Shown: in pieces, positions 2,101 to 54,582 of the stretch
How the letters are laid out: each line of letters begins with the position of its first letter
Numbering within the stretch: position 1 is the stretch's first letter
DNA from: Paenibacillus tianmuensis
GTDB lineage: Bacteria > Bacillota > Bacilli > Paenibacillales > NBRC-103111
Reading direction: 5' to 3'
DNA: 64,000 nucleotides
Assembly (NCBI RefSeq): GCF_900100345.1
Contig: NZ_FMTT01000024.1
Coordinates: 1 to 64,000, forward strand
The notes under the pieces: model-generated
What the model was told of the DNA's origin: nothing
Database searches by the model: none
The model's input: the letters and a program-made list of their open reading frames with translations, nothing else
Program-made: the position numbers and the translations under genes

Positions 2101-2364
2101 CTAATTAAGCCCGCGCGGCAAGTTCGCGCGCTCCACGATAAACGAGACGATATGGTCTACGCTCGATAACGATTCGATCATCAGGTCCTCCTCATCGAAT
2201 GCTACTTGAAACTCCTGCTCCAGCCAGGCGATCAATCGGACCACCATAACGGAATCCAACACGCCCTGCGGGCCCAACAGCCGCGCAGAACGCTCCACGT
2301 CCGACGTACCGAGCAATTGAGCTACGATGGCCGTAACCTTTCGTTCAATTTCTTCACGATTCAT
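2101..2364 (-). CDS. Acyl carrier protein
   Basis: An 87-residue carrier protein. The motif GVLDSVMVVRLIAWLEQEF places the phosphopantetheine-accepting Ser at residue 38 (LDS), followed by the usual acidic helix ending EEDLMIES. It overlaps the preceding FkbH-type gene by 4 bases (ATGA), so the two are translationally coupled. This is not the fatty acid synthesis ACP: it sits in a metabolite-like operon and its sequence differs from the DSLD type (DSVM instead). It probably carries the unit made by the FkbH protein. It is the last gene of the operon. Confidence 0.85.
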   Translation of the reverse strand: MNREEIERKVTAIVAQLLGTSDVERSARLLGPQGVLDSVMVVRLIAWLEQEFQVAFDEEDLMIESLSSVDHIVSFIVERANLPRGLN

Positions 2365-3419
2365 TCTAAGGTTCTCCCTTCCGCTTGCTTAAAATGCCCC
2401 ATCTTCACGCCAATCCAATCCGGTACGCAATAGGAGAGCGGTAACGGCAGAACATAGATCGAATCGTGCTCCCGCCTCTCCTTCCTTGTAAACCCCAAAA
2501 GCTGCAAAAGCATCAGCGCGGGCCGGTTGCGCCCTGTGGCCCGGTAGCTGCAAACCGCTTCAAGCATTGCCGGATGCTCCCGCTGCGCCAGCTTCAGCAC
2601 CGTCCCGAGAAACGCGGTTCCAATGCCGCGCCCTTCAATGCGGCAAGAGATGCAGAACAACCGGATGACCAGCCGTTCCTCCTCATAGTCCAGCATGGCT
2701 GCCCCGACAAGGCCGTGGTCGCCGAACCTGTCCTTCAGCTCCGCGACATAAAGCCCCTTCGCCGGCGATTCCAGATAAGAGCGGACGACGTCCTCCGACA
2801 TCCGCTCCGTGAAATTATTGAATTGATTCGTTCTTGCAGCCAACTCGAAGGCCCGGTCAAGATCCTCCTCGCGTGCAGTGCGTACCTCCAGCTCCATGAA
2901 GCAGGAGCGCAAAAAGTCTTCCCGCGTTCCGGCGAACCACTGCTCCGCCGTTTTCCGCTCCAGCCGGGAAAGCATCATCTCGCGTCGTTTCCCCGCCTCC
3001 TTCGTCAGCTTCTCGACTTGGAACTCGGGATATCCGGCGAGCTCCAGCGCCTCATGCGCACCGTAGACGGTCAGCTCCGGCAGATACGTTCCCGCCTCAT
3101 AGCGTTCGAACGGATTGTCATCGATGAACGCTACCGCATCCAGCCCGATATTCAACTCGTTCGCGATCCGTCGGATGCCCTCCGCCTTGGTCCCCCAACC
3201 GATCTGGGGATACAGAAAATAACGGCCGATGCCTAGTTCCTCCAATTTCGCCATAGCTAGATCATGGTCGTTCCGGCTCGCTACGCTCTGCAAAATGCCG
3301 CGCCCGTCCAACTGCTCCAGCACCTCGCGAATGCCGGGATGCAGCGACACCTCTTCATCGTCGGCCAGCGTTCCGTGCCATAACGTTTCGTCCAAATCCC
3401 AAATCAGACATTTGATCAT
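2361..3419 (-). CDS. FkbH-like HAD-IIIC protein with C-terminal GNAT-like domain
   Basis: A 352-residue protein. The N-terminal HAD domain has WDLDETLWHGTL with the nucleophile Asp8 and Asp10, ASRN at 47-50, a Lys in GWGTKAEGI near 78, and FIDDNPFER at 99-106. The second half is an acetyltransferase-like fold. This two-part layout is that of FkbH proteins, which in polyketide pathways load glyceryl from 1,3-bisphosphoglycerate onto an ACP. An ACP gene overlaps its 3' end, which fits that role. No polyketide synthase or NRPS is near, so the acceptor is unknown. The family call is strong; the substrate is inferred. Confidence 0.85.
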   Translation of the reverse strand: MIKCLIWDLDETLWHGTLADDEEVSLHPGIREVLEQLDGRGILQSVASRNDHDLAMAKLEELGIGRYFLYPQIGWGTKAEGIRRIANELNIGLDAVAFIDDNPFERYEAGTYLPELTVYGAHEALELAGYPEFQVEKLTKEAGKRREMMLSRLERKTAEQWFAGTREDFLRSCFMELEVRTAREEDLDRAFELAARTNQFNNFTERMSEDVVRSYLESPAKGLYVAELKDRFGDHGLVGAAMLDYEEERLVIRLFCISCRIEGRGIGTAFLGTVLKLAQREHPAMLEAVCSYRATGRNRPALMLLQLLGFTRKERREHDSIYVLPLPLSYCVPDWIGVKMGHFKQAEGRTLE

Positions 3420-3438
3420 GCTACCTATCCTCCGCAGC

Positions 3439-3897
3439 CTAAGCTTCCTGATCCTGCACCTTGTACTCCATCGTCAGATGGGTCGGCGCGAAGCCGTAAT
3501 TTTTATACAGCACGCGCATGGGCAGGTTGCTGACGTGTACGTGTCCGACGATGCGCCGGGCCTCCTGTCTGCCGGCAAACTCCATCCCCGCTTCGAATAA
3601 AGCCGTTACCGCCTCCGTACCGCGGCACGATTCGGCAGCGTAGAAGCTTTTGAACTGGATATATTTTTCTTTCGTCACGAAATTCTCTTTGAGCGTCATC
3701 CAGAGCCAGCCGGCCACCCGGCCTTCCAGCTCCAGAACGAGCATGCCTTCCCTTTCACGAGGAATCGCTTTTTCCAGCTTGCGCTGGTGGAATTCCAGAT
3801 CCGTTACCGCCTCGCTGCCAAACGAAATGACGGAAATTTCCTTCTCAAATTCGGCTACCTGAACCAAATCCTCCTGCTTGATCGGTCGGATATTCAT
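3439..3897 (-). CDS. GNAT family N-acetyltransferase
   Basis: About 152 residues, starting MNIRPIKQEDL. A further in-frame ATG lies 27 bases upstream at 3924, but AAAGGAG sits at the right distance for the ATG at 3897. The fold signature runs from MLVLELEGRVAGWLWM (beta strands) through KSFYAAESCRGTEAVTALF (acyl-CoA pyrophosphate-binding region) to LPMRVLYKNYGFAP near the C-terminus, as in GNATs. It sits between a polyamine-type aminopropyltransferase and an FkbH/ACP pair with short gaps. It may therefore acylate an amine made by the operon. The acceptor is not known. Confidence 0.8.
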   Translation of the reverse strand: MNIRPIKQEDLVQVAEFEKEISVISFGSEAVTDLEFHQRKLEKAIPREREGMLVLELEGRVAGWLWMTLKENFVTKEKYIQFKSFYAAESCRGTEAVTALFEAGMEFAGRQEARRIVGHVHVSNLPMRVLYKNYGFAPTHLTMEYKVQDQEA

Positions 3898-3939
3898 CTT
3901 GTCTTCTTCTCCTTTTTGAGCCATAAATTCGCCGTATGC

Positions 3940-5103
3940 TTATACGCTCTTCTTTTCGATCAATTGAAACGTATCGTTCTTACAATGGGGACACCCTTGA
4001 TTTTTAAGCTGCTCGATCGTAGGCACGTCGCCTTGGAAACCGACCTGGACCGTTCCCCCGCACTGCTTGCAGCGGTAAGTGCGCAGCGTCCGCTTGACTT
4101 CGCCCGTATACAGCGCATCCTCGAAAGCGTCGGCGTATTCGGAACGCGTCTGCTCCGTCGTCTTCAGCACGATCATTTGGCTCTGGTTCGCGATCATTTC
4201 CGCGCCTTCGTACTCGTTAAAGCGCGGGTACGCCGCGCTGACCATGAGCCCCATCTGCACGAACTCCCGCTGCATCGCCAGCATGAACTCCGGCGACTTA
4301 TGGGCAAAAGAAAAGAAGATCGGAGCCCCTTTCCTCTTCTTCAAGCCGCTGATGCCGCGGGAAAGAAACAGCGTCATGCCCTGCAGCGTATACGGCGGAT
4401 CGGTGAAGAAGCAGTCGTATTGTCCCTGCCATTCCTCGGCCAGCGGCTGCCGCAAATCCCAGTGGCGGCATTGGATGGGCAGCCCCCCCCTGGCTGCGGT
4501 CTCGCCGATATAGCTCAGGAACCGCTCGTCAATATCGACAACGTCGATCCTCGTCTTCGAATGTCCCGCCGGGAAAAGCTTCCGAAGCAGAAGGCCGATC
4601 GACACGCTAACCAGATCGTCGTCGCCGATGCAGAGCACACGCTTTCCAATCAGCGCCTGCTGCTTCAAGCACAGGACGGCCCGGCGCAGACTCGTTTCCA
4701 CGGTACATTTTGATTGATCGATCTGGACGTCCACCTGCGGCCGCATGCGGAGTAGTTCCTGAAGCTCGCTTAGCACGTCGGCCAGCTCGGCTGTCCAATC
4801 CGCATCGCCCGCCATCAGCTTCAGGTACAGACTTTTGTTTATTCCGCCGTATCCCAGCTCTTGCTCAATCCATGCCGTTCCCGCCCTGCTGCAGCGCGTC
4901 CCGTTTTCTTGCGTCAGCGCGCCTGCCTTGACAAGCTCTTTCTTGATGGCCGCGGCTACGGGAACGGGCAGCAGCGTCTTGCGAGCCAGCTCCTTGGTCG
5001 AGATGCCAGGGCTGAAATAGCATTCTAGCAAAAGCTGCTCGATGACGACGGTGCCTTCTTCCAGACGGACATTCGCGCTGACTTCATCCAAATAATTTTT
5101 CAT
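3940..5103 (-). CDS. BpsA-like branched-chain polyamine synthase (bis-aminopropyl spermidine synthase family)
   Basis: 387 residues. The N-terminal winged-helix-like part (about 20-80) is followed by a Rossmann methyltransferase-type domain with CIGDDDLVSVS (158-168), DVVDID (187-192) and DPPYT (235-239), the hallmarks of the DUF43/BpsA family. The C-terminus carries a zinc-ribbon-like CKQC (345-348) and CPHC (371-374). BpsA enzymes of thermophiles transfer aminopropyl groups from decarboxylated SAM to spermidine. The start at ATG 5103 has GGAGG upstream. It is the first gene of a four-gene operon with GNAT, FkbH and ACP. A C-terminal zinc ribbon and this context may mean a different acceptor. 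Confidence 0.8.
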   Translation of the reverse strand: MKNYLDEVSANVRLEEGTVVIEQLLLECYFSPGISTKELARKTLLPVPVAAAIKKELVKAGALTQENGTRCSRAGTAWIEQELGYGGINKSLYLKLMAGDADWTAELADVLSELQELLRMRPQVDVQIDQSKCTVETSLRRAVLCLKQQALIGKRVLCIGDDDLVSVSIGLLLRKLFPAGHSKTRIDVVDIDERFLSYIGETAARGGLPIQCRHWDLRQPLAEEWQGQYDCFFTDPPYTLQGMTLFLSRGISGLKKRKGAPIFFSFAHKSPEFMLAMQREFVQMGLMVSAAYPRFNEYEGAEMIANQSQMIVLKTTEQTRSEYADAFEDALYTGEVKRTLRTYRCKQCGGTVQVGFQGDVPTIEQLKNQGCPHCKNDTFQLIEKKSV

Positions 5104-5115
5104 TTCGATCCTCCG

Positions 5116-5410
5116 ATTCGGTTTCGATGGTAACGCCCGATACGTGCTTGCGTCCCATTAATTTGCTTTTTTTGCGGAATTCTTCGTCTCGGACACGGTG
5201 TCCAGATCAATTGTCCGGATAGAGCTCCTTGCTCGGTGTCGAGTTTCAGCCGCTCCTGGTTGATTTTGAACTTCTGGTTTTAGACTATCACACCTATATT
5301 GCCCCGGGCATCCTCGGTTTCAAACACAATGCCGGTACGGCCCAAATAAGCGATGTACACGCAATCGCCGAGCTGGAAGCTTCCGAACGTTGCAATGCTT
5401 TTTCATTCAT
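5116..5410 (-). pseudogene. Decayed small gene upstream of the BpsA-like gene
   Basis: A good RBS (AAGGAGATATCTCCT) leads to ATG 5410, but the frame breaks at once. In other frames the strand reads TFGSFQLGDCVYIAYLGRTG, then IVFETEDARGNIGVIV, a stop, NQKFKINQERLKLD, a second stop after ELYPDN, and KSKLMGRKHVSGVTIE. Put together these resemble one basic protein of about 95 residues with at least two stops and frameshifts. I do not recognise the family. It is preceded by a promoter, a structured leader and a terminator (5441-5777), so a once-regulated gene seems to have died. Confidence 0.6.
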
Positions 5411-5434: not shown

Positions 5435-5741
5435 TAAAAAAAGCAGAGAATGAACGTACGTCATTCTCTGCCTTTTTATGTCATGCCTAAGTAAGAGCGC
5501 CCGATAAAACAGAAAATCCGCGCTGAACTCAGCACGGATGATAGGCGCAACGATTAGGCATGTACCTATGGCATTGTATGATATCCGTTGTTCTTAATTA
5601 ATTCCGAGTCTACCATAAACTCATGACAAAATAAACCTTGCGGAACAGCAAAATTCAGCCGTGAATTTCCAGTATCCTCATTATGGAATTGATTAGTTAA
5701 GAACGACCGCCGACATCAACATCTCTCCCTAGGCAATAATT
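5435..5741 (-). ncRNA. Candidate structured leader or small RNA with own promoter and terminator
   Basis: A sigma-A-like promoter fires leftward at about 5741 and the transcript would end at the terminator at 5443-5471, giving about 300 nt. Inside are GTTCTTAA pairing with TTAAGAAC, GGAATT with AATTCC, and a nested three-stem block at 5482-5562: CATGCCTAA/TTAGGCATG outside, GCGCC/GGCGC in the middle, ATCCG-GCTGA/TCAGC-CGGAT inside. A short reading frame (MSAVVLN) lies near the 5' end. I could not match it to a riboswitch class I know. It could be a riboswitch, an attenuator or a stand-alone RNA. Confidence 0.45.
5443..5471. terminator. Strong hairpin terminator in the leader
   Basis: GCAGAGAATGA and TCATTCTCTGC form an 11-bp perfect stem with loop ACGTACG. 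Runs of T follow on both strands. On the minus strand it lies between the structured block at 5482-5562 and the RBS of the decayed gene, as in transcription attenuators. Confidence 0.85.
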
Positions 5742-5747
5742 AAGCTT

Positions 5748-5777
5748 ACTATATCTTACGTCCCCGGAGAATGTCAA
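5748..5777 (-). promoter_or_regulatory. Sigma-A-like promoter
   Basis: On the minus strand TTGACA (5772-5777) is followed after 18 bases by TATAGT (5748-5753). No full gene follows at once; the transcript first enters the structured region. Confidence 0.7.
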
Positions 5778-5841: not shown

Positions 5842-7563
5842 TCATGCCCCGAACTGCGCCCGGTGCAGGCGGCTGTATGCGCCCTCCGCAGCGAGCAGTT
5901 GCTCGTGATTGCCCTGCTCGGCAATGCCTTGGTCTGCGACCACCACGATCCGGTCGGCGTTCTTTATCGTCGCCAGCCGATGGGCAATAATCAGCGTCGT
6001 CCGTCCTTCCGACAGCTCGGCCAGCGCCTGCTGAATGGCCGCCTCCGTCTCCGTATCGAGCGCCGACGTCGCCTCATCAAGTATGAGGATCGGCGGATTT
6101 TTCAGGAACATGCGGGCTATCGAGAGGCGCTGCTTTTGCCCGCCGGACAGCTTCACCCCGCGCTCGCCGATCAGCGTATCAAGCCCCTTGGGCTGGGACA
6201 AGATCAGCTCTTCCAGCTGCGCCCGGCGCGCGGCCTCCCAGATTTCCTCATCCGTCGCTCCCAGCTTGCCGTACGCAATATTTTCGCGGATCGTCCCATC
6301 GAACAGGAATACGTCCTGCTGCACGATGCCGATGTGCGAGCGCAGCGATTGCAGCGTCATCTGCCGGATATCGATGCCGTCGATCGTAATGCTTCCTTCG
6401 TCGACCTCGTAGAACCGGGGCAGCAAGCTGCACAGGGTCGTCTTGCCTGCGCCAGAAGGTCCGACGAGCGCTACGGTTTCCCCTGCGCGAACCGAAAGAT
6501 GAACGTCCTGCAGCACCTTCTCCTTGTTCTCATAGCCGAACTTCACGCCGTTGAAGCGGATATCCCCCTTCAGTTGCTCAACATGACGCGCATCTGGCGC
6601 ATCGTCCACATCGGGGGCGGTCTCCAGCAGCTCCAGATACCGTTTGAAGCCCGCAATACCTTTCGGATACGTCTCGATCACCGAGTTGATCTTCTGGATC
6701 GGCCCGAGGAAGACGTTGGACAGCATGACGAAAGCGATGAACTCCCCGTACGACATTTTTTTCTGGAGCACAAACCACGTGCCGCAGACGAGCACGAACA
6801 ACGAAACGAGCTTCATCAAAATATAGCTGAACGACGAATTCCACGCCATGATCCGGTAGGTCAGCAGCTTGGTCATCCGAAACCGGCTGTTGTTCTCCGC
6901 GAAGCGGGCGATTTCATGCTTCTCGTTGGAAAACGCCTGCACCACGCGAATGCCGCTGATATTGTTTTCGACCCGGGCGTTGTAGTCTGCGATGTCGGCG
7001 AACATGCGCTTAAAGGCGCGCGACATTTTTTGGCTGAAGTACAGAGACAAGTAAATCATCAGCGGGATGATAATAAAGGTCAGCACCGCGAGCTGCCAGT
7101 TGATGTTCAGCATAATCCCGAAGGCTCCGGTCAGCGTCATGACGGCAATGAACAAGTCTTCGGGGCCGTGGTGGGCGATCTCCCCAATGTCCATCAAGTC
7201 GTTGGTCATCCGGGAGACGAGATGCCCGGTCTTGTTGTTGTCGAAGAAGCGGAACGACAGCTTCTGCACATGGTCGAACAGCTTCTTGCGCATATCTGTT
7301 TCGATATTGATGCCCAGCATATGCCCCCAATACGTCACCACGTAGTGCAGCGCAGCGCTGATCGTATAAATGCCGAGCAGGCCGAGGCAGCCCCACAAAA
7401 TCCACTCCCATTTGCCGCTCGGCAGCAGATCGTCCACCACCCGGTTGACGGCGATCGGGAAAATCAGCTCCAGCAGCGCCGCAATAATCGCGCAGGAGAA
7501 ATCCAGCAGGAACAACCCTTTGTAGGGTTGATAATAAGCAAAAAAACGCCGAAGCATAGGCAA
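5842..7563 (-). CDS. ABC exporter-type half transporter (fused permease-ATPase), Fur-controlled
   Basis: 573 residues. Residues 1-310 form the six-helix exporter domain. The ATPase domain has Walker A GPSGAGKTT (368-376), LSGGQ (472-476) and Walker B ILILDE (492-497), then DEATSALD. All catalytic elements look intact. Such half transporters work as dimers. A Fur-box-like dyad (7598-7612) lies 35 bases upstream, so the gene is probably iron-repressed, which suggests siderophore export or uptake rather than drug efflux. It is transcribed away from the binding-protein gene at 7841. The substrate is not visible in the sequence. Confidence 0.85.
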   Translation of the reverse strand: MPMLRRFFAYYQPYKGLFLLDFSCAIIAALLELIFPIAVNRVVDDLLPSGKWEWILWGCLGLLGIYTISAALHYVVTYWGHMLGINIETDMRKKLFDHVQKLSFRFFDNNKTGHLVSRMTNDLMDIGEIAHHGPEDLFIAVMTLTGAFGIMLNINWQLAVLTFIIIPLMIYLSLYFSQKMSRAFKRMFADIADYNARVENNISGIRVVQAFSNEKHEIARFAENNSRFRMTKLLTYRIMAWNSSFSYILMKLVSLFVLVCGTWFVLQKKMSYGEFIAFVMLSNVFLGPIQKINSVIETYPKGIAGFKRYLELLETAPDVDDAPDARHVEQLKGDIRFNGVKFGYENKEKVLQDVHLSVRAGETVALVGPSGAGKTTLCSLLPRFYEVDEGSITIDGIDIRQMTLQSLRSHIGIVQQDVFLFDGTIRENIAYGKLGATDEEIWEAARRAQLEELILSQPKGLDTLIGERGVKLSGGQKQRLSIARMFLKNPPILILDEATSALDTETEAAIQQALAELSEGRTTLIIAHRLATIKNADRIVVVADQGIAEQGNHEQLLAAEGAYSRLHRAQFGA

Positions 7564-7597
7564 CCCTCTCTCTCGATTCTCTTCTTAATGATATAAA

Positions 7598-7612
7598 TGA
7601 GACTCATTCTCA
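7598..7612. promoter_or_regulatory. Fur-box-like site
   Basis: TGAGACT-C-ATTCTCA fits the 7-1-7 inverted repeat of Bacillus Fur sites (TGATAAT-N-ATTATCA) with mismatches in the left half. It lies between the start of the ABC gene at 7563 and the divergent binding-protein gene. Confidence 0.65.
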
Positions 7613-7785
7613 TTGCCACACCTCATTGTAGGCGGCGTACCAAGAGATGGCAATGGACAAACGCGACGGTTTTTTTGCACAAAATTAAAAGGGAACTTGT
7701 CCGAAGTTTTGTACAAAATGAAGCGGCCGTTTTTCGTTTGTCCATTGAGTACCGAACAGGTTCCTTATATGATGGTTTCTGAAAC

Positions 7786-7804
7786 GATAATGAGAATCAT
7801 TATC
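7786..7804. promoter_or_regulatory. Near-perfect 19-bp Fur box
   Basis: GATAATGAGAATCATTATC is an almost ideal palindromic Fur box, 36 bases upstream of the start at 7841. It should make that gene strictly iron-repressed. Confidence 0.9.
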
Positions 7805-7840
7805 TATAATTCTTACACCCTGTCGAAGGAAGGTAACCTC

Positions 7841-8824
7841 ATGAAAGCGGCAAGAAAAGTCATTCATCTGTTCGTCATCGTCCTAAGCTTGGGAGCGCTG
7901 TTGGCTATGGCGGCATGCGGCGCACAAACCGCAGCTCCTCCCGCTTCCGCTGGACAAACCGCTGACTCGCCCGAAGCCAATGCGCCTGATACACGCAAGT
8001 ATACGGATTATAAAGGCAACGAAGTGCAAATTCCCGTGCAGCCGCAGCGCGTCATTTTTGCGGGAGAGACGTTCGGCGATTTGCTGGTTCTCGGTGTCGA
8101 CGCCGTCGGCGCGCAGTTGTCTTCGATCAAAGATCATGTCTTCGAAAACCGGGTGAAGTCTATCGAAGATGTCGGCTTCCCGATCAATCTGGAAAAGGTG
8201 CTGGAGCTGAAGCCCGACTTGATCCTTGTGGCCAGCACCGACACGAAGCAATACGAGCAGCTTTCCAAAGTCGCTCCTACCGTCATGTTCGATACGTTCG
8301 CCCCGTTGGACGAGCGTATTGCGGTGCTGGGGGATTTGCTCGGAAAGCAGCAGAAGGCCAAGCAGTGGCTTGCCGATTTCAACGCGAAAGCGGAGGCCAT
8401 GTGGAAGCAGCTCCGGGCGGACGGCATGAAGGACGGAGAAACCGCCTCGGTGTTTACGTATTATCCCGGCGACCGGCTGTTTGTCATGGCGCGCGCCGGG
8501 CTTCCGCAAATGCTGTATCATCCAAACGGGTTCAAGCCTACCCCGATGATTCAGGACGTGCTAAACGGCAGCAAAGGGTTCATGCATATCTCGCCGGAGC
8601 TTCTGCCGCAGTACGCCGGAGACCGGATTTTCATTCTCATTCCGGCCGCCGGTCTGGAGGATGCGCGCAAATCGACGGACGAATTGATGAAAAGTCGCAT
8701 ATGGCTTGATCTGCCTGCCGTCAAGAACGGCCGCGTCTATTCCATCGATATTTCAAAATCCGACAGCGACGCCTCGACGAGGGAATGGATGCTGGAGGAA
8801 CTGCCTAGAATGCTTCGCAAATAA
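7841..8824 (+). CDS. Iron-siderophore ABC transporter substrate-binding lipoprotein
   Basis: 327 residues. The ATG at 7841 has GAAGGAAGG upstream and opens a signal peptide ending ALLAMAACG (lipobox Cys26); an upstream in-frame extension crosses the Fur box and is rejected. The mature part is a two-lobe FecB/TroA-type binding protein: GNEVQIPVQPQRVIFAGET, LKPDLILVAS, APTVMFDTFAP, AGDRIFIL. It should hold a ferric siderophore outside the membrane. Its sequence is strikingly like the C-terminal half of the AraC fusion encoded next (GETFGDLL, DIGFP/DVGFP, KPDLI, FAPLD). No FecCD-type permease or ATPase is in the window. Confidence 0.88.
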   Translation: MKAARKVIHLFVIVLSLGALLAMAACGAQTAAPPASAGQTADSPEANAPDTRKYTDYKGNEVQIPVQPQRVIFAGETFGDLLVLGVDAVGAQLSSIKDHVFENRVKSIEDVGFPINLEKVLELKPDLILVASTDTKQYEQLSKVAPTVMFDTFAPLDERIAVLGDLLGKQQKAKQWLADFNAKAEAMWKQLRADGMKDGETASVFTYYPGDRLFVMARAGLPQMLYHPNGFKPTPMIQDVLNGSKGFMHISPELLPQYAGDRIFILIPAAGLEDARKSTDELMKSRIWLDLPAVKNGRVYSIDISKSDSDASTREWMLEELPRMLRK

Positions 8825-8909
8825 TTTACCAATTTATGCGGGAGGTTCCCGGAAGCTTTTCAAGCTGTTATTGAAAAGCTTCTTTGTTTTTTATACAATA
8901 GATTTTAAT

Positions 8910-8924
8910 TGATAATCATTCTCA
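8910..8924. promoter_or_regulatory. Fur-box-like site
   Basis: TGATAAT-C-ATTCTCA is a 7-1-7 inverted repeat with one mismatch to the consensus, 18 bases before the start region of the AraC fusion. Confidence 0.8.
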
Positions 8925-8941
8925 ACCACTGAAGGAGGAAT

Positions 8942-10609
8942 GTGCGATTGGGCTGCGAATCTGCGAACGCCTCTTCCCTGCGCTCTTTGTTGTTTCATCT
9001 GTCGGATATCGAGCGAATCCATCGGCCGGTCGGATGGAAATCCGGGAAACAAACGGCCGCTCACCATACGATGCTGATCTTTACCACCGGACAGGGCCGC
9101 TTGGATGCGGACGACAGCCGCTATCACTTCACTCCCGACAGGTGCTTCTTATTCGCTCCTGGGGCTTCGTATCGACTGGAGAACGAATATGACGACGCGC
9201 TCCGTTTCTACAAGATCACGTTTACGGCCGTTCGGATTGGGAGCTCTTCGCACGAAACGTTTGCCGGAGAGCTTTTTCCGGAGCGCCGCGAGCTGACCGC
9301 GTATCCGTTCTCCCGGCTAGTCCGGTTAACGGAAGAGCTGTACGCCGGCCGGCCCGACCCATGCGATATCGCTTGGTTCAAGCAGCAACTGCGGTTTCAG
9401 GAGTTGCTGGGCTTTGTCATCGAGCACAATCTCCATTCGGAGCGGCCGCTCAGTCCGACGCAAGCGGTCGAAAGCACGGTCCGGTACATACAGAACCATT
9501 ACATGGATAACATCACCGTCAAGCAGCTAGCCAGTCAGGCGCAAGTGCCGCACTGGCAGTACACCCCGATTTTCCAAGAGCTGACCGGCAGGAAGCCGCT
9601 CGATTATTTGACCGAGCTGCGGATTAACCGCTCCAAGCAATTGCTGCTGGCTTCGACAGCTCCCTTAAGGGAAATTGCCCAACAAGTCGGCTTTCGGGAC
9701 GAGTACTACTTTAACCGCCGCTTTCGTCAAACGACGGGCATCGCGCCGAAGCAGTATGCCCGTCTGGCGAGCCGTACCGTTCTGGTCAGGGATTGGACGG
9801 GGCACGAGGTCGAAATCCCCGAGCAACCGGAGCGGATCATTTATTACGGGGAAACGTTCGGGGATCTGCTGGCGCTAGGCGTTAAAGCGATTGGCGGCGG
9901 CATTTCATTTTATAAGCAATCCTTATTCAAGAGCAAGCTGCGGGACGTACACGACATTGGCTTTCCGATGAGGACAGAGGTCCTTGCGGCGCTGAAACCG
10001 GATTTGATCATCTTGGCCAGCTCCGACGAAGCGCAGTATGCCCGCATTTCCAAGATCGCTCCCACGCTGACGTTTAATTCGTTTGCGCCGCTCGATCATC
10101 GTTTGCGCACGCTCGGCCGTTGGCTCGGGAAAACGCGCGAGGCGGAGCGGTGGCTGAAAGTCTACAACGCCAAAGCGGCCGCCATGTGGCAGCAGCTTCG
10201 CTCCACGATTGAACCGGGGGAAACGGCCTCCGTGTTTATTTACGATCATGGCAAGCGCTTATTTGTCATGGGAGCCGTCGGTCTTTCGTCGGCGCTTTAT
10301 CACCCTTACGGCTTTCGGCCTGCCGGACACATTCAGGAAGTGCTGAATGCGGGACAAGGATTTACGGAAATATCTGAGGCCAGCCTGCCCGCGTATGCCG
10401 GGGACCGTATTTTCATGCTGCTTCCCGCTAGCCCCGAGTCGGTACAAGCAGCGGAGAAGCTGATGAGCAGCCCGCTTTGGCGCTGCCTGCCCGCCGTTCG
10501 GAACGACCGCGTCCATCTGGTGGATGCGGCGCAGTGGAACTTCGGCGACGCCTTCACCAGAGCGAAGCTGCTTGAAGCGCTGCCCCGCTGGCTTACCAAA
10601 ACCTCGTAG
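8942..10609 (+). CDS. AraC-type regulator fused to a siderophore-binding domain (Btr-like)
   Basis: About 555 residues. The N-terminal cupin-like part (about 35-130) is followed by two AraC helix-turn-helix motifs (about 175-275: ITVKQLASQAQVPHW and LREIAQQVGFRDEYYFNRRF), then a periplasmic-binding-protein domain without a signal peptide (about 285-550). This is the layout of Btr (YbbB) of B. subtilis, which senses ferric bacillibactin and activates its uptake genes. The binding domain closely resembles the lipoprotein at 7841, so it probably senses the same siderophore in the cytosol. GTG 8942 is close to the RBS; TTG 8948 is better spaced from AAGGAGG. A Fur-box-like site lies upstream. Confidence 0.88.
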   Translation: MRLGCESANASSLRSLLFHLSDIERIHRPVGWKSGKQTAAHHTMLIFTTGQGRLDADDSRYHFTPDRCFLFAPGASYRLENEYDDALRFYKITFTAVRIGSSSHETFAGELFPERRELTAYPFSRLVRLTEELYAGRPDPCDIAWFKQQLRFQELLGFVIEHNLHSERPLSPTQAVESTVRYIQNHYMDNITVKQLASQAQVPHWQYTPIFQELTGRKPLDYLTELRINRSKQLLLASTAPLREIAQQVGFRDEYYFNRRFRQTTGIAPKQYARLASRTVLVRDWTGHEVEIPEQPERIIYYGETFGDLLALGVKAIGGGISFYKQSLFKSKLRDVHDIGFPMRTEVLAALKPDLIILASSDEAQYARISKIAPTLTFNSFAPLDHRLRTLGRWLGKTREAERWLKVYNAKAAAMWQQLRSTIEPGETASVFIYDHGKRLFVMGAVGLSSALYHPYGFRPAGHIQEVLNAGQGFTEISEASLPAYAGDRIFMLLPASPESVQAAEKLMSSPLWRCLPAVRNDRVHLVDAAQWNFGDAFTRAKLLEALPRWLTKTS

Positions 10610-10816: not shown

Positions 10817-11782
10817 TTAATGTGCGGCATCTCTGACATAGTCGCTTGGATTCACGCCATACGTCTTCTTGAATAAGGCCGCAAAATGGCTGAAATTATT
10901 ATAGCCTACCAGAGACGCGGCTTGACTGACGTTCAGCGAGCCTTTTTCCAGCAGCAGCCTGGCTTTCTCCATCCGCTGCTGGCGGACGAATTCGAAGACG
11001 GTCATCCCGAACACTTCCTTAAAGCCGATCTTCAGTTTGTAGTCGTTGAGGCTGATTTTGCGCGATAAGGCAAGCAGGCTGGGCGGCTGAGCCAGCGTCT
11101 GCAGCAAAATATCTCTGGCGCTGTAGATCTTGTCGATATCTTCCGTTTTCAAGCTGGAGCCTTTCCTTGCACGGCCGTCGTTCGCTTCGTAAATAAACGA
11201 CGCCAGCAGTTCGAGGCACTTTCCTTCCAGAAAAAGCCGCTTAGCCGAGCCGCTGTACGGGCAGCTCTGCAGCTGCTGCACCAGAACTTGAAGCTTGGGA
11301 CCGATCAAATCTTCAAAGCAGAAGAAAGACTTCTCCATCCTGACACCCAATTCTTGAAAAAGGGGCTGCCAGAGCCGGGCGTCCATACGCAGCTCTGCTT
11401 GCACGATCCGTTTATTTTTTCTGTGTTCCATATGGATACGGACATCGTTAAAGTAAACAAGCTGCGCGGAGCCGGACTCGTTCGATATTTCCCTCTGCTG
11501 CCCTTCAGCGGACCAGCAGCCGCTGCCCTCGATATTCAGCGCAAGTTCCAGATGCGGATACCGAACGCCCATATCGAAGGTAACGTCCTCTCGCCAGATC
11601 ATATCGCTCAACTGCAGCTCCATGCCGTCCCGAAGCTGGATGAAGCTAAATTGCCCTTCGCCGTATTCCGGCGCGAGCTTGCCCGTCTGCTCGTACGGCT
11701 CCTTCTGCGGAACGGCGTTCAAATAGCCGCATACGTTCGTTGTCATATCGTGAAGCTCGGCAAACTCGGCCTGAATGTTCAT
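10817..11782 (-). CDS. AraC family regulator (PchR/YbtA-like)
   Basis: 321 residues. The N-terminal part has the GxGxWSAEGQQ and LVYFNDVRIHMEHRKN pattern seen in PchR-type sensors. The C-terminal 100 residues hold the AraC domain: LLALSRKISLNDYKLKIGFKEVFGMTV and the signature VSQAASLVGYNNFSHFAALF. PchR and YbtA bind a ferric siderophore and activate uptake genes. A Fur-box-like site lies upstream. It is encoded right after an IrtAB/YbtPQ-like ABC pair on the same strand but has its own terminator and Fur site, so it is probably a separate iron-repressed unit controlling that pair. Confidence 0.85.
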   Translation of the reverse strand: MNIQAEFAELHDMTTNVCGYLNAVPQKEPYEQTGKLAPEYGEGQFSFIQLRDGMELQLSDMIWREDVTFDMGVRYPHLELALNIEGSGCWSAEGQQREISNESGSAQLVYFNDVRIHMEHRKNKRIVQAELRMDARLWQPLFQELGVRMEKSFFCFEDLIGPKLQVLVQQLQSCPYSGSAKRLFLEGKCLELLASFIYEANDGRARKGSSLKTEDIDKIYSARDILLQTLAQPPSLLALSRKISLNDYKLKIGFKEVFGMTVFEFVRQQRMEKARLLLEKGSLNVSQAASLVGYNNFSHFAALFKKTYGVNPSDYVRDAAH

Positions 11783-51755: not shown

Positions 51756-52592
51756 TTAAATCGTCCAATCGTACCACTCGTTTTTGCGTTTGTCGATATA
51801 CAGCAGCCAATCCCTTGTTTTGGTCAACAACTGCTCTTTGGCCAGACTGCCCGAATACGTATGATTCGCCTGGAAAATAATTTCTTTCTCACACTGCCCC
51901 TGACTGCGCAGCCAGAACAGCTTCTGGTACAGAAAGCAGTAATCGACGGGAATCACGTCATCTGCCGTACCGTGGACGAGCAGGACGTCGCCGTTAAATT
52001 TGCGAAGCTGCTCAAACGGCTGGTGCTGCGACAACGATTCGAAAAAGACCGGCTGCAGCGCATAACCGAGATGATCCGCCGAGCCGCATTGAACGGCCGT
52101 CTCGTACGTCTTCTTCCCGGTGATGTTCACGATGTCGTTAAACGGATACGCGACGGCCGACCAGAGTACGAGTGATTTCACCCGTTTGTCCCGGGCGGCG
52201 GTCAGGATGGCGACGGCTCCGCCGAGGCTGTGTCCGAGCAGCACGACCCGCTGCGGGTCGACGCAGTCGATATCGAGCGCGTAATCGAGGACGGTGCGCG
52301 TCTGGTCGATCAACGCGTTCAAGCCCCCGGCGCCGTAATCGCCCGTGCTCTCGCCGCAGCCGCCGTAGTCGAATCGGAGCACCATATAGCCGTGACGGGC
52401 AAATTCCCGCGCCGCCAAGACGAACAAGCGGTCGACGCCGATTCGCGTGCCGACGAACCCGTGGCATATGATGATGATCGGATAACGGCCCGACCCGCAG
52501 CCCTTTCCGCCCTCCTCTTCCGCCAGCGGATAATGGAGGTTTGCCGCCAACTCGTATGGTTCGCTTCGTATCGTAATATGATGTTCCATCAT
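51756..52592 (-). CDS. Alpha/beta hydrolase (acyl esterase-like)
   Basis: 278 residues. IIIICHGFVGTRIGVDRLFV is the oxyanion strand, VVLLGHSLGGAVAIL carries the nucleophile Ser, VLLVHGTADDVIPVDYC the acid Asp and QANHTYSG the His. GGCGESTGDYGAGG is typical of small-ligand dipeptidyl-peptidase-like hydrolases. No signal peptide, so cytosolic. It is 29 bases downstream of the sulfate ATPase gene, so it may serve sulfur ester use, but this is only inferred. Confidence 0.82.
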   Translation of the reverse strand: MMEHHITIRSEPYELAANLHYPLAEEEGGKGCGSGRYPIIIICHGFVGTRIGVDRLFVLAAREFARHGYMVLRFDYGGCGESTGDYGAGGLNALIDQTRTVLDYALDIDCVDPQRVVLLGHSLGGAVAILTAARDKRVKSLVLWSAVAYPFNDIVNITGKKTYETAVQCGSADHLGYALQPVFFESLSQHQPFEQLRKFNGDVLLVHGTADDVIPVDYCFLYQKLFWLRSQGQCEKEIIFQANHTYSGSLAKEQLLTKTRDWLLYIDKRKNEWYDWTI

Positions 52593-52621
52593 CGACTCCC
52601 CCTTTCTGCGACCTCATTCAA

Positions 52622-53686
52622 TTAAATGTGCACCGGCATCGGGTCGGATTTCAGCGTGTTTTCCAACGTGAGATGTTCGTCTTCGTTGAACAGGTACAAA
52701 CGGTGAATCAACACGCTCACCCGGTCTCCGGCATGAAGCTGCGGCAGCTCCAAAGAGCGATAAGCGAACAGCTTCTCGCTGCCGAGCGTCACTTCGATCT
52801 GCCAATTCGTTCCGCGGAAGTAGACGTTCTTGACGACGCCCTGCTCGGCTGCGGACGGATAAGGCAGCTCGCCGGGCAAGCCGACCTCGATAAACTCGGG
52901 GCGAATAATCGCTTTTGCGCCTTCGATCGCCCCGGCAGCCGGGAAACCTTTGAGCGTCGTGGCGTCTCCAATCTGATTCGATTCGCCGATGAAATTCGCC
53001 ACAAACGGCGTTTCCGGCTGCTTGTAAATTTCAATCGGCGTGCCCTGCTGCTCCAGCCGGCCTTGGTTGATGATCATGATCTGATCGGCCACCTCGACGG
53101 CTTCCTCTTGGTCGTGCGTGACGAAGATGGTGGTAATGCCGACACGGTCGATCATCTCCTTCAGCCAGGTGCGCAGCTCTTTGCGTACCTTGGCGTCGAT
53201 GGCCGCAAACGGCTCATCCAGCAGCAGCAGTTGCGGCTCGGGCGCGATGGCGCGGGCAAAGGCGACACGCTGCCGCTGTCCGCCGGAAAGCTGGTGCGGC
53301 AGCCGCTTCTCAAGCCCTCCCAAGCCGGTAAGCTCGATCAGCTCCTGCACGCGCTGCTTGATCTGGGCCTTGCTGCGCTTCTGAACCGTCAGCCCGAAGG
53401 CAATATTGTCGAACACGCTCATGTGGCGGAACAGCGCGTAGCTCTGGAACACGAAGCCGATGCCGCGCGCTTGCGGCGGAAGCGAGTTGACCTTTTGCCC
53501 GTGAAAGAGGATGTCGCCCGAATCCGGCTCCTCCAATCCGGCGAGCATACGAAGGATTGTCGTTTTCCCGCCACCGCTCGGTCCGAGCAGACCGATCAGC
53601 TTCCCTTTTTCAATCTCGAAGCTGACGTCTTTGGTCGCCTGAAAGCTGCCGAAGCTTTTCGTCAAATGTTTGGCCACGATATGCAT
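52622..53686 (-). CDS. cysA: Sulfate/thiosulfate ABC transporter ATPase CysA
   Basis: 354 residues. LGPSGGGKTTILRMLAGLE (Walker A), FVFQSYALFRHMSVFDNIAFG (Q-loop in the form typical of CysA), LSGGQRQRVAFARA, LLLLDEPFAAID and VTHDQEEAVEVAD are present. The C-terminal 110 residues are a TOBE-like regulatory domain. Together with the two permeases and binding protein it makes an importer for sulfate or thiosulfate. Confidence 0.93.
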   Translation of the reverse strand: MHIVAKHLTKSFGSFQATKDVSFEIEKGKLIGLLGPSGGGKTTILRMLAGLEEPDSGDILFHGQKVNSLPPQARGIGFVFQSYALFRHMSVFDNIAFGLTVQKRSKAQIKQRVQELIELTGLGGLEKRLPHQLSGGQRQRVAFARAIAPEPQLLLLDEPFAAIDAKVRKELRTWLKEMIDRVGITTIFVTHDQEEAVEVADQIMIINQGRLEQQGTPIEIYKQPETPFVANFIGESNQIGDATTLKGFPAAGAIEGAKAIIRPEFIEVGLPGELPYPSAAEQGVVKNVYFRGTNWQIEVTLGSEKLFAYRSLELPQLHAGDRVSVLIHRLYLFNEDEHLTLENTLKSDPMPVHI

Positions 53687-53688
53687 GA

Positions 53689-54582
53689 TCAGGTCTCCCC
53701 TTCCCGGCTAAGCTGCTGTTGATGGTGCTTCCACTCGATGACACTTTTGACGATCAAGGTGATCACCGCAAGCAGGACGAGCAAAGATGCCATGGCAAAC
53801 GCGCCGGCAAAATTATATTCGTTGTATAAAATCTGAATGTGCAGCGGCATCGTATTGGTCGATCCGCGAATGTGGCCGGAGACGACCGATACCGCGCCGA
53901 ATTCGCCCATGGCGCGGGCGTTGCTCAGGATGACTCCGTACAGCAGCCCCCATTTGATGTTAGGCAGCGTGATTTTCCAGAAGATGCGCCACCCCTTGGC
54001 GCCTAGCGTTACGGCCGCCTCTTCCTCCAGCGTCCCTTGAGCCTGCATCAGCGGCAGCAGTTCCCGGGCGACGAACGGGAAGGTGACGAATACTGTGGCG
54101 AGTACGATGCCCGGCAGCGCGAAAATGATCTTGAGATCGTTCTCCTGTAGCCACGGGCCGAACCAGCCTTTCGCGCCGAACAGCAGGATGAAGATCAGGC
54201 CCGAGATCACTGGGGACACCGCAAACGGCAGGTCGATAAGCGTGATCAGCAGGTTTTTTCCTTTAAATTGGAATTTCGTGATCGCCCATGCCGCCGCCAG
54301 TCCGAACAGCAGGTTAAGCGGCACCGTGATGACGGCAACGAGCAGCGTCAGGCGAATGGCGTCCGCCGCATCGGGCTCGATCAGCGAAGCCGCATACACC
54401 TCCCAGCCTTTGCGGAACGCTTCAACAAAGATGCTGACCAAAGGCAGAATGAGTAAAAATCCCAAAAATAGCAAAGCGACGGTAATGAGCGCCCATTTCA
54501 CGATCCGGGGCTCGGTAATGTGACGCGGACGTTCGGCGGCGGCCGAACCCGATTTCACCGCGGTAGCTACGTAACCGGCCAT
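53689..54582 (-). CDS. cysW: Sulfate ABC transporter permease CysW
   Basis: 297 residues, six membrane helices. PLVSIFVEAFRKGWEVYAA is typical of CysW. The EAA loop is EEEAAVTLGAKGWRIFWKITLPN. ARAMGEFGAVSVVSGHIRGSTNT is the CysW signature with SGHIRG. It is encoded 2 bases before cysA and after cysT. RBS GGGAGGGGAGGAAGG. Confidence 0.93.
   Translation of the reverse strand: MAGYVATAVKSGSAAAERPRHITEPRIVKWALITVALLFLGFLLILPLVSIFVEAFRKGWEVYAASLIEPDAADAIRLTLLVAVITVPLNLLFGLAAAWAITKFQFKGKNLLITLIDLPFAVSPVISGLIFILLFGAKGWFGPWLQENDLKIIFALPGIVLATVFVTFPFVARELLPLMQAQGTLEEEAAVTLGAKGWRIFWKITLPNIKWGLLYGVILSNARAMGEFGAVSVVSGHIRGSTNTMPLHIQILYNEYNFAGAFAMASLLVLLAVITLIVKSVIEWKHHQQQLSREGET

Follow-up and report, generated by a model that had tools for sequence, protein, structure and literature searches.

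A four-gene cassette with a zinc-ribbon BpsA relative and a putative attenuator leader in Paenibacillus tianmuensis

What might a relative of the branched-polyamine synthase BpsA be doing beside a GNAT, an FkbH-type protein and an acyl carrier protein, away from any assembly line? The question is raised by the first 64,000 nucleotides of P. tianmuensis contig NZ_FMTT01000024.1 (hereafter the window), in which these four genes lie intact on the minus strand. The BpsA-like protein, BPS (5103-3940; 387 aa), has a winged-helix-like N-terminus, a transferase domain and a C-terminal zinc-ribbon-like module, and matches Pfam BpsA_C (1.1e-44). It is followed by the GNAT acyltransferase (3924-3439; 161 aa; PF00583, 3e-9), the FkbH-type HAD and acyltransferase protein (3419-2361; 352 aa; TIGR01686, 245.1 bits against a cut-off of 146.65) and the acyl carrier protein (2364-2101; 87 aa; PF00550, 2e-8), which contains an LDS phosphopantetheine site. 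The intergenic gaps are 15 and 19 nt, and the FkbH and ACP genes overlap by 4 nt. Coordinates and gene calls were correct; ORFs, family matches and spacing all bear out the packed set described in the initial annotation. No PKS or NRPS gene was found within the 64-kb window, where no non-overlapping ORF exceeds 617 aa.

The four genes are a real co-inherited unit and work as a set. Their recurrence with conserved gene order in five or more genera, drawn from two families, together with dN/dS values of 0.11-0.26 across BPS, GNAT, FkbH and ACP in the orphan-cassette group, makes this more than chance. Among 395 genomes of the order, the cassette GNAT subfamily was found only beside BPS. The cassette-type FkbH (13 genes at 597 bits or more, against 332 for the next) sits in cassettes in 13 of 13 cases, and is fused with the ACP into one protein in two lineages. 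Neighbourhood comparison confirmed that the genes occur together in relatives. The genome from which the window derives has a single FkbH. BPS itself is patchily distributed (49 of the 395 genomes), and lone BPS genes are much commoner than four-gene cassettes; their recurrent partners are limited to MutS2-like genes (few), MFS transporters of mixed families (Brevibacillus) and topoisomerase III (one clade). Broken copies occur among the BPS and cassette loci and, with the patchy spread, would suit a resistance gene. A search of a plasmid collection gave a single distant match and nothing else.

BPS shares its fold and the GDDD motif with BpsA, the N4-bis(aminopropyl)spermidine synthase (T. 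kodakarensis 5XNC, T. thermophilus 6J27). The top nine Foldseek matches were BpsA or its uncharacterised P. furiosus relative, with BpsA at E 5e-21 and the next, unrelated methyltransferases, at 2e-11. The invariant GDDD (residues 160-163; 4615..4626, minus strand) is the donor motif of BpsA (Asp159/Asp160; PMC12979288), and BPS also keeps the Asp of DPP and the equivalent of Tyr290 (FNEY). However, the BPS clade reads HKSP and DPPY where 12 canonical BpsA proteins read EAS and DP[PV]E; DPPY (residues 235-238; 4390..4401, minus strand) occurs in 69 of 70 clade members and in none of the 12. E259 is absent from the clade, and a CxxC...CxxC ribbon (residues 339-386; 3946..4089, minus strand) replaces the acidic aminopropyl-carrier tail; in BpsA, this tail and E259 act on the polyamine (PMC12979288). 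The ribbon cysteines (C345, C348, C371 and C374) are invariant in 21 sequences, and the C-terminal zinc ribbon noted earlier thus holds up. BPS forms a clade separate from true BpsA (support 100/100) and is less acidic, with a median pI of 8.2 for lone and 7.4 for orphan-cassette proteins versus 5.1 for canonical BpsA; that of the window is neutral (pI 6.5). We take DPPY to resemble the motif of amino-methyltransferases. Since E259, DP[PV]E and the acidic tail are all missing, the label of branched-polyamine synthase given in the initial annotation is unsupported.

Nine cassette GNATs do not keep the pyrophosphate loop R/Q-x-x-G-x-G/A but read R-x-x-[E/A]-x-[V/A], and their donor may be an ACP. 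The predicted GNAT model had as its top structural match the polyamine acetyltransferase DpA with 1,3-diaminopropane, barely ahead of many other GNATs. In FkbH the motifs DLDETLW, IDDNPFER and SCRIEGRG are intact, with D8, D10 and the SCR motif invariant among cassette relatives. The FkbH domain, HAD motifs and partner ACP are shared with the glyceryl-loading pairs of FK520, tetronate and hydroxymalonyl systems (PMC7489565), whereas the window operon lacks the dehydrogenase pair, the FabH-like tetronate synthase and the PKS, and the cassette FkbH belongs to a separate high-scoring subfamily. A literature search on BpsA with FkbH, DUF43 in gene clusters and aminopropyltransferases in clusters found nothing relevant; corramycin, which surfaced there through its FkbH, was dismissed as a related product because it contains no polyamine part.

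Upstream of BPS lies a leader of approximately 300 nt (5777-5443, minus strand throughout). The leader with its uORF had gone unmentioned in the initial annotation, as had a wrecked MutS2-like gene and the cassettes inside NRPS-PKS clusters of relatives, both described below. A candidate sigma-A promoter, TTGACA-18-TATAGT (5748..5777), is recognised by its consensus match (11 of 12 positions), and its TTGACAT is conserved in eight relatives. The uORF ATGTCGGCGGTCGTTCTTAACTAA (5693..5716) has seven codons, reads MSAVVLN* and is preceded by a Shine-Dalgarno-like AGGGAG. Pairing segment 1, GTTCTTAACTAAT (5692..5704), overlaps the 3' end and stop codon of the uORF; its partner, segment 2, ATTAATTAAGAAC (5590..5602), has one C.A mismatch in the window and is perfect in most relatives. 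The antiterminator segment ACGGAT (5583..5588) complements the 5' arm of terminator 1, ATCCGTGCTGAGTTCAGCGCGGAT with a T-rich tail (5516..5539). Terminator 2, an GGCAGAGAATGACGTACGTTCATTCTCTGC hairpin (5443..5472), is conserved in relatives.

Of 64 non-PKS BPS loci, 56 have the uORF (MSxxVLN*) together with its pairing, whereas none of nine PKS-linked loci has the uORF; a search made without presupposing the peptide recovered it independently. Across 18 sequences of one lineage group, 98.3% of cells are paired for segments 1 and 2, 95.0% for terminator 1 and 99.1% for the antiterminator, against 17-41% in sliding controls for the latter; the other two also lie far above their controls. One pair of terminator 1 shows a compensatory change from G-C to A-U in three sequences, and an automatic scan of wider leaders detected an antiterminator in 26 of 45. 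The long helix shows little covariation because it hardly varies, and its support comes from conservation and the sliding controls. Conservation of the VLN codons may reflect RNA pairing and not the peptide. Rfam models gave no relevant leader match at E<=1 for the window and six relatives. Amino-acid attenuation was ruled out, since the uORF has no single-codon run.

This anatomy, with its mutually exclusive pairings, suggests ribosome-mediated attenuation. Attenuators of this kind control inducible antibiotic-resistance genes, as in the erm, cat, vmlR and bmrCD leaders, with which the BPS leader shares a short uORF with Shine-Dalgarno sequence, pairing at the uORF end and an antiterminator/terminator switch. 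It differs from them in its peptide and in its presumed targets, which are BPS and a Smr-less MutS2, neither of them a resistance gene known to us. The exact leader pattern was found in 28 of 89 genomes, with no control matches; in these 89 genomes, all 18 leader copies away from BPS precede a Smr-less, Walker-A-positive MutS2. MutS2 (RqcU) is a ribosome-collision ATPase of B. subtilis that acts in ribosome rescue. Intact MutS2-like relatives of about 660 aa share with it Walker A and a match to TIGR01069 (mutS2; 586-589 bits over positions 1-515 of 790), but differ in lacking the Smr motifs and in having the attenuator leader. In P. elgii relatives and B. fluminis the MutS2-like gene and BPS stand in one operon. 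In the window, a remnant of the gene, internally deleted and frameshifted, remains between leader and BPS (5108..5410, minus strand; tblastn and blastn against locus L003). A leader common to BPS and Smr-less MutS2 points to translation stress, not to ordinary small-molecule synthesis.

In nine further genomes from two families the cassette lies within an uncharacterised hybrid NRPS-PKS cluster, between or behind its genes; at nine such loci it directly follows a PKS protein ending in C-FkbH-T. The PKS-linked BPS proteins form one clade, and three genomes carry one of these plus a separate lone BPS. The cluster also encodes an NRPS C-A-T-C protein, a hydroxymalonyl-type gene set and a membrane beta-lactamase-family PF00144 protein bearing a signal peptide and, at its C-terminus, TM segments, all shared with the N-acyl-D-Asn prodrug clusters of zwittermicin, amicoumacin, edeine, paenilamicin and xenocoumacin (PMC9889268); such a cluster is not at the cassette locus of the window genome. 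The statement that no PKS or NRPS lies near is therefore right for the window but fails as a general feature. The initial annotation had held that a larger known cluster in relatives would tell against a joint pathway: a larger cluster there is, but no counterpart of it turned up in the literature, and inside it the set still stays together. To our knowledge, none of the named prodrug clusters has a terminal C-FkbH-T module with BPS-GNAT-FkbH-ACP behind it.

We propose, at a probability of about one half, that this is a translation-stress (antibiotic)-inducible cassette for ribosome protection or drug modification, and prefer this to an acyl-polyamine pathway. The leader RNA with its seven-codon uORF suggests that a polyamine-synthase-like enzyme may act on ribosomes, protecting or modifying them, or may disarm an antibiotic. 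By default, transcription would end within the leader. A ribosome stalled where the uORF ends in VLN-stop would cover segment 1, and the freed segment 2 and ACGGAT would then block terminator 1. BPS would be a BpsA-derived transferase with decarboxylated SAM as its likely donor, because GDDD is kept, and SAM as a possible one; where BpsA uses a polyamine, its acceptor would now be a planar amino group, most likely on a ribosomal RNA base, otherwise on the inducing drug. With 1,3-bisphosphoglycerate as the source, FkbH would charge the ACP with a C3 glyceryl unit, which the GNAT would pass to an amine, either made by BPS or on the drug; how FkbH and ACP might contribute to protection is guesswork. 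In the NRPS-PKS relatives, the leaderless cassette might be the cluster's self-protection or final-tailoring unit. A fully specified version, in which BPS aminopropylates an rRNA base on ribosome stalling (with dcSAM), GNAT, FkbH and ACP glyceryl-cap the amine and the leader co-regulates Smr-less MutS2, is quite unlikely to be right in every part; it would amount to a new kind of drug-inducible rRNA hypermodification with a polyamine synthase as its evolutionary origin. On the side of protection are the leader data, the MutS2 link, DPPY, the zinc ribbon, the higher pI, the patchy spread and the prodrug-like PKS-linked cluster; on the other side are BpsA as sole close fold, the retained GDDD, the pI of 6.5 in the window and the polyamine-acetyltransferase match of the GNAT.

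Provided that the leader does what its architecture suggests, there is a small ribosome-stress regulon in Paenibacillus, Brevibacillus and relatives; we know of nobody who has tied either the zinc-ribbon BpsA relative or the Smr-less MutS2 to translation stress. A family annotated as polyamine synthase would then become one of candidate ribosome- or drug-modifying enzymes, and the leader an inexpensive reporter with which to find the inducing antibiotic. An uncharacterised family of prodrug-type NRPS-PKS clusters could be flagged in genomes in this way, and the cassette itself would be a rare case of carrier-protein chemistry outside an assembly line.

Among the alternatives, an amended acyl-polyamine pathway is conceivable, if doubtful: BPS would aminopropylate a polyamine or small amine, FkbH and ACP would supply glyceryl, the GNAT would join the two, and the leader would sense polyamines by slow termination at the uORF. 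There is precedent for the last step in the MAGDIS uORF of eukaryotic AdoMet decarboxylase, which senses polyamines in this way. The restriction of BPS fold neighbours to BpsA, with GDDD kept, and the DpA match of the GNAT agree with such a pathway, as does the SAM decarboxylase family found in every BPS genome of the family; since 100 of 104 genomes overall have it, this co-occurrence is uninformative. The BPS clade has, however, lost the carrier tail and E259, and its leader would also control Smr-less MutS2, for which no connection to polyamines is known. Of the joint acyl-polyamine pathway first suggested for this locus, the action of the four genes as a set stands; BPS as a polyamine synthase is not supported, and the leader points to translation stress instead.

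The cassettes behind C-FkbH-T proteins and the single clade of PKS-linked BPS bring in another explanation, that of a module for an NRPS-PKS product (e.g. a glyceryl- or aminopropyl-bearing end group), with orphans as leftovers or as in-trans suppliers to another cluster. C-FkbH-T modules of vioprolide indeed add glycerate, through an ester bond (PMC8949500). We nevertheless regard it as unlikely: orphan cassettes show purifying selection and a leader of their own, lone BPS genes far outnumber cassettes, some genomes hold both PKS-linked and lone BPS, and the window genome has but one FkbH. That the four genes are decaying and have no present function in the window genome is very unlikely. The MutS2-like gene is wrecked there, and the neighbour MZ04-78.2 has lost most of GNAT, FkbH and ACP through a clean deletion, but in the window BPS, GNAT, FkbH and ACP are each complete and keep their motifs, and the group dN/dS is low.

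Four intact, tightly packed genes occupy positions 2101-5103 on the minus strand of the window, encoding BPS, a BpsA-fold protein of 387 amino acids, a GNAT (161 amino acids), an FkbH protein (352 amino acids) and an ACP (87 amino acids). The last two genes overlap by four bases. Pfam and NCBIfam support the domain assignments of the initial annotation, all four products retain their catalytic or attachment motifs, and dN/dS values among the seven closest full cassettes (BPS 0.11, GNAT 0.18, FkbH 0.20, ACP 0.26) indicate purifying selection. The source genome (6.03 Mb) lies near Paenibacillus elgii, P. ehimensis and P. tyrfis. A siderophore-like locus adjoins the cassette at 5842-10609, comprising an MsbA-like ABC exporter together with two divergently oriented genes, one for an iron-type binding protein and the other for a fusion of an AraC protein with a binding protein. 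In Paenibacillus sp. MZ04-78.2 (L002), one clean deletion at approximately 11179-11739 removed FkbH completely, along with most of ACP and the C-terminus of GNAT; its BPS is still 94% identical.

The four genes do occur together in relatives and form a real unit. BPS matches were found in 26 of the 104 genomes of the family and GNAT subfamily matches in 16, every one adjoining BPS. Across the order (395 genomes) this subfamily was present in 24, all within the 49 genomes possessing BPS, and at BPS-adjacent coordinates in all 24. The 13 places at which cassette-type FkbH scored at least 597 bits were all cassettes, the next FkbH reaching 332 bits. Over 14 cassettes, the four proteins show correlated pairwise distances (0.93-0.98). 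FkbH and ACP are a single protein in two loci, L049 and L051, which argues that FkbH serves the ACP of its own cassette.

No PKS or NRPS was located in the whole 64-kb window, as had been noted initially, but the statement does not extend to relatives. In the window's family (L057-L059) the cassette directly follows a PKS protein ending in C-FkbH-T, and it also lies behind such a protein in another family of the order (G497, L154, L155, L157, L160 and L165). In genomes G061 and G497 this protein is part of a hybrid NRPS-PKS cluster of approximately 50 kb (C1:2125339-2169000 and C1:4855157-4900846, respectively), in which prodrug-type parts occur together with a terminal C-FkbH-T module and the BPS cassette. 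Both clusters contain an NRPS C-A-T-C protein, a membrane beta-lactamase-family protein (with a signal peptide and C-terminal TM segments in G061), a thioesterase, several KS-AT proteins, and a 3-hydroxyacyl dehydrogenase, FkbH, ACP and acyl-CoA dehydrogenase set. In their peptidase and C-A-T-C components the clusters are similar to the N-acyl-D-Asn prodrug class (PMC9889268), and C-FkbH-T modules are known to add glycerate via an ester bond (PMC8949500); a literature search found no published counterpart for the whole cluster. PKS-linked BPS proteins form one clade, and three genomes that have one also carry a lone BPS elsewhere. A PF20254 N,N-dimethylformamidase beta-subunit-like protein lies near the cassette end in both PKS clusters (L133:10533-12842; G061 joined 52236-54578), with prophage tail genes intervening in G497.

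Foldseek analysis of the BPS AlphaFold model (pLDDT 87) revealed BpsA as the only near fold, and the GDDD motif is retained. However, 69 of 70 BPS-clade members possess DPPY at the place where the 12 canonical BpsA sequences have DP[PV]E. Enzymes that act on planar amino groups, for example those of nucleobases, have DPPY as their signature. The EAS holding the BpsA residue Glu259 (PMC12979288) is replaced by HKSP-like residues, and the acidic tail, which in BpsA carries the aminopropyl group (PMC12979288), by a CxxC...CxxC ribbon. The two clades split at 100/100 support, and BPS is less acidic (median pI 8.2 for lone BPS, 7.4 for orphan cassettes and 6.7 for PKS-linked copies, vs 5.1 for canonical BpsA). 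BPS is not simply BpsA: of the branched-polyamine synthase originally proposed, the fold and GDDD stand, whereas the loss of DP[PV]E, Glu259 and the acidic tail makes that identity less probable. Since GDDD is a donor-side motif, BPS could still transfer an aminopropyl group.

Upstream of the operon, approximately 300 nt between a promoter-like element (TTGACA-18-TATAGT, 5777-5748 in the window) and the first gene are nearly invariant among eight close relatives. This leader contains, behind a Shine-Dalgarno-like stretch, a seven-codon uORF, which in the window reads MSAVVLN* (5716-5693). BLAST revealed related leaders preceding BPS throughout Paenibacillus and Brevibacillus, and MSxxVLN* frames were recovered by a search requiring only a short frame with a segment complementary to its end further downstream. 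A direct search recovered the frame at 56 of the 64 BPS loci without PKS linkage and at none of the nine PKS-linked loci. Among the eight misses, an intervening MutS2-like gene reaches the end of the available sequence in two (L089, L094) and another (L161) carries a variant of the frame. In 3.1 Mb of locus sequence, both strands counted, 83 of 104 pattern matches lay upstream of BPS; those listed among the remaining 21 seem to be those same leaders in mirror image. A sub-threshold PreQ1 riboswitch match (29.4 bits vs a gathering score of 39) was seen in a BPS locus of a third family (L074:908-952, minus strand), and an IMG/VR viral contig (L207, 1885-2013) matched both pairing arms, with no uORF of the MSxxVLN* type found.

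The uORF end and stop codon pair with a segment that lies approximately 100 nt further downstream (98.3% of cells paired), and the ACGGAT after that segment pairs with a terminator at its 5' arm (99.1%). The hairpin of this terminator (95.0%) shows one compensatory change and is followed by a second hairpin. The helix varies so little that covariation is weak; an automatic scan detected the antiterminator in only 26 of the 45 wider leaders, and Rfam holds no family matching the leader. Judged from its sequence, this anatomy is that of ribosome-mediated attenuation: the terminator would form without a stalled ribosome on the uORF, and the antiterminator with one. The VLN residues may be fixed by RNA pairing rather than by the peptide.

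Of 89 genomes of the family, 28 contain the exact two-arm pattern; a reversed control gave no matches. All 18 retrieved copies away from BPS carry the same uORF (LMSVxVLN* or a close variant) and sit just upstream of a MutS2-like gene whose product has Walker A but lacks Smr motifs. Two examples from operons shared with BPS score 586-589 bits against TIGR01069 (mutS2), the match covering positions 1-515 of the 790 in the model; leader, MutS2-like gene and BPS are one operon in the P. elgii group and Brevibacillus fluminis. In the window this gene is a remnant (5108-5410, minus strand) consisting of the first ~10 codons and the C-terminal part, having undergone an internal deletion of ~1.7 kb and then a frameshift; it is intact in all close relatives. 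Genomes that lack BPS also have Smr-less MutS2 genes under the control of the leader (L208-L225). The leader by itself marks a regulon and, since it precedes both Smr-less MutS2 and BPS, the observed regulon has two members. In Bacillus subtilis, MutS2 acts on collided ribosomes.

Attenuators of this type without codon runs usually serve resistance to ribosome-targeting antibiotics, and we therefore favour translation-stress-inducible protection as the function of the cassette. The patchy spread and many broken BPS copies, as in resistance genes, point the same way, as do the BPS motifs and ribbon, which fit a nucleic-acid acceptor, and the leaderless BPS copies, whose clusters belong to a class with many ribosome inhibitors, in which self-protection is required. 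The main rival is the acyl-polyamine pathway suggested by the initial annotation; it draws on BpsA being the only close fold to BPS and on a polyamine acetyltransferase being the best structural match of GNAT, and is weakened by the departures of BPS from BpsA. Under the favoured reading, GNAT, FkbH and ACP would constitute an acylation branch in which FkbH forms glyceryl-ACP and GNAT passes the acyl group to an amine, perhaps that of BPS-modified RNA, a drug or a polyamine. The CoA loop of the cassette GNAT is degenerate, which is compatible with ACP as the donor.
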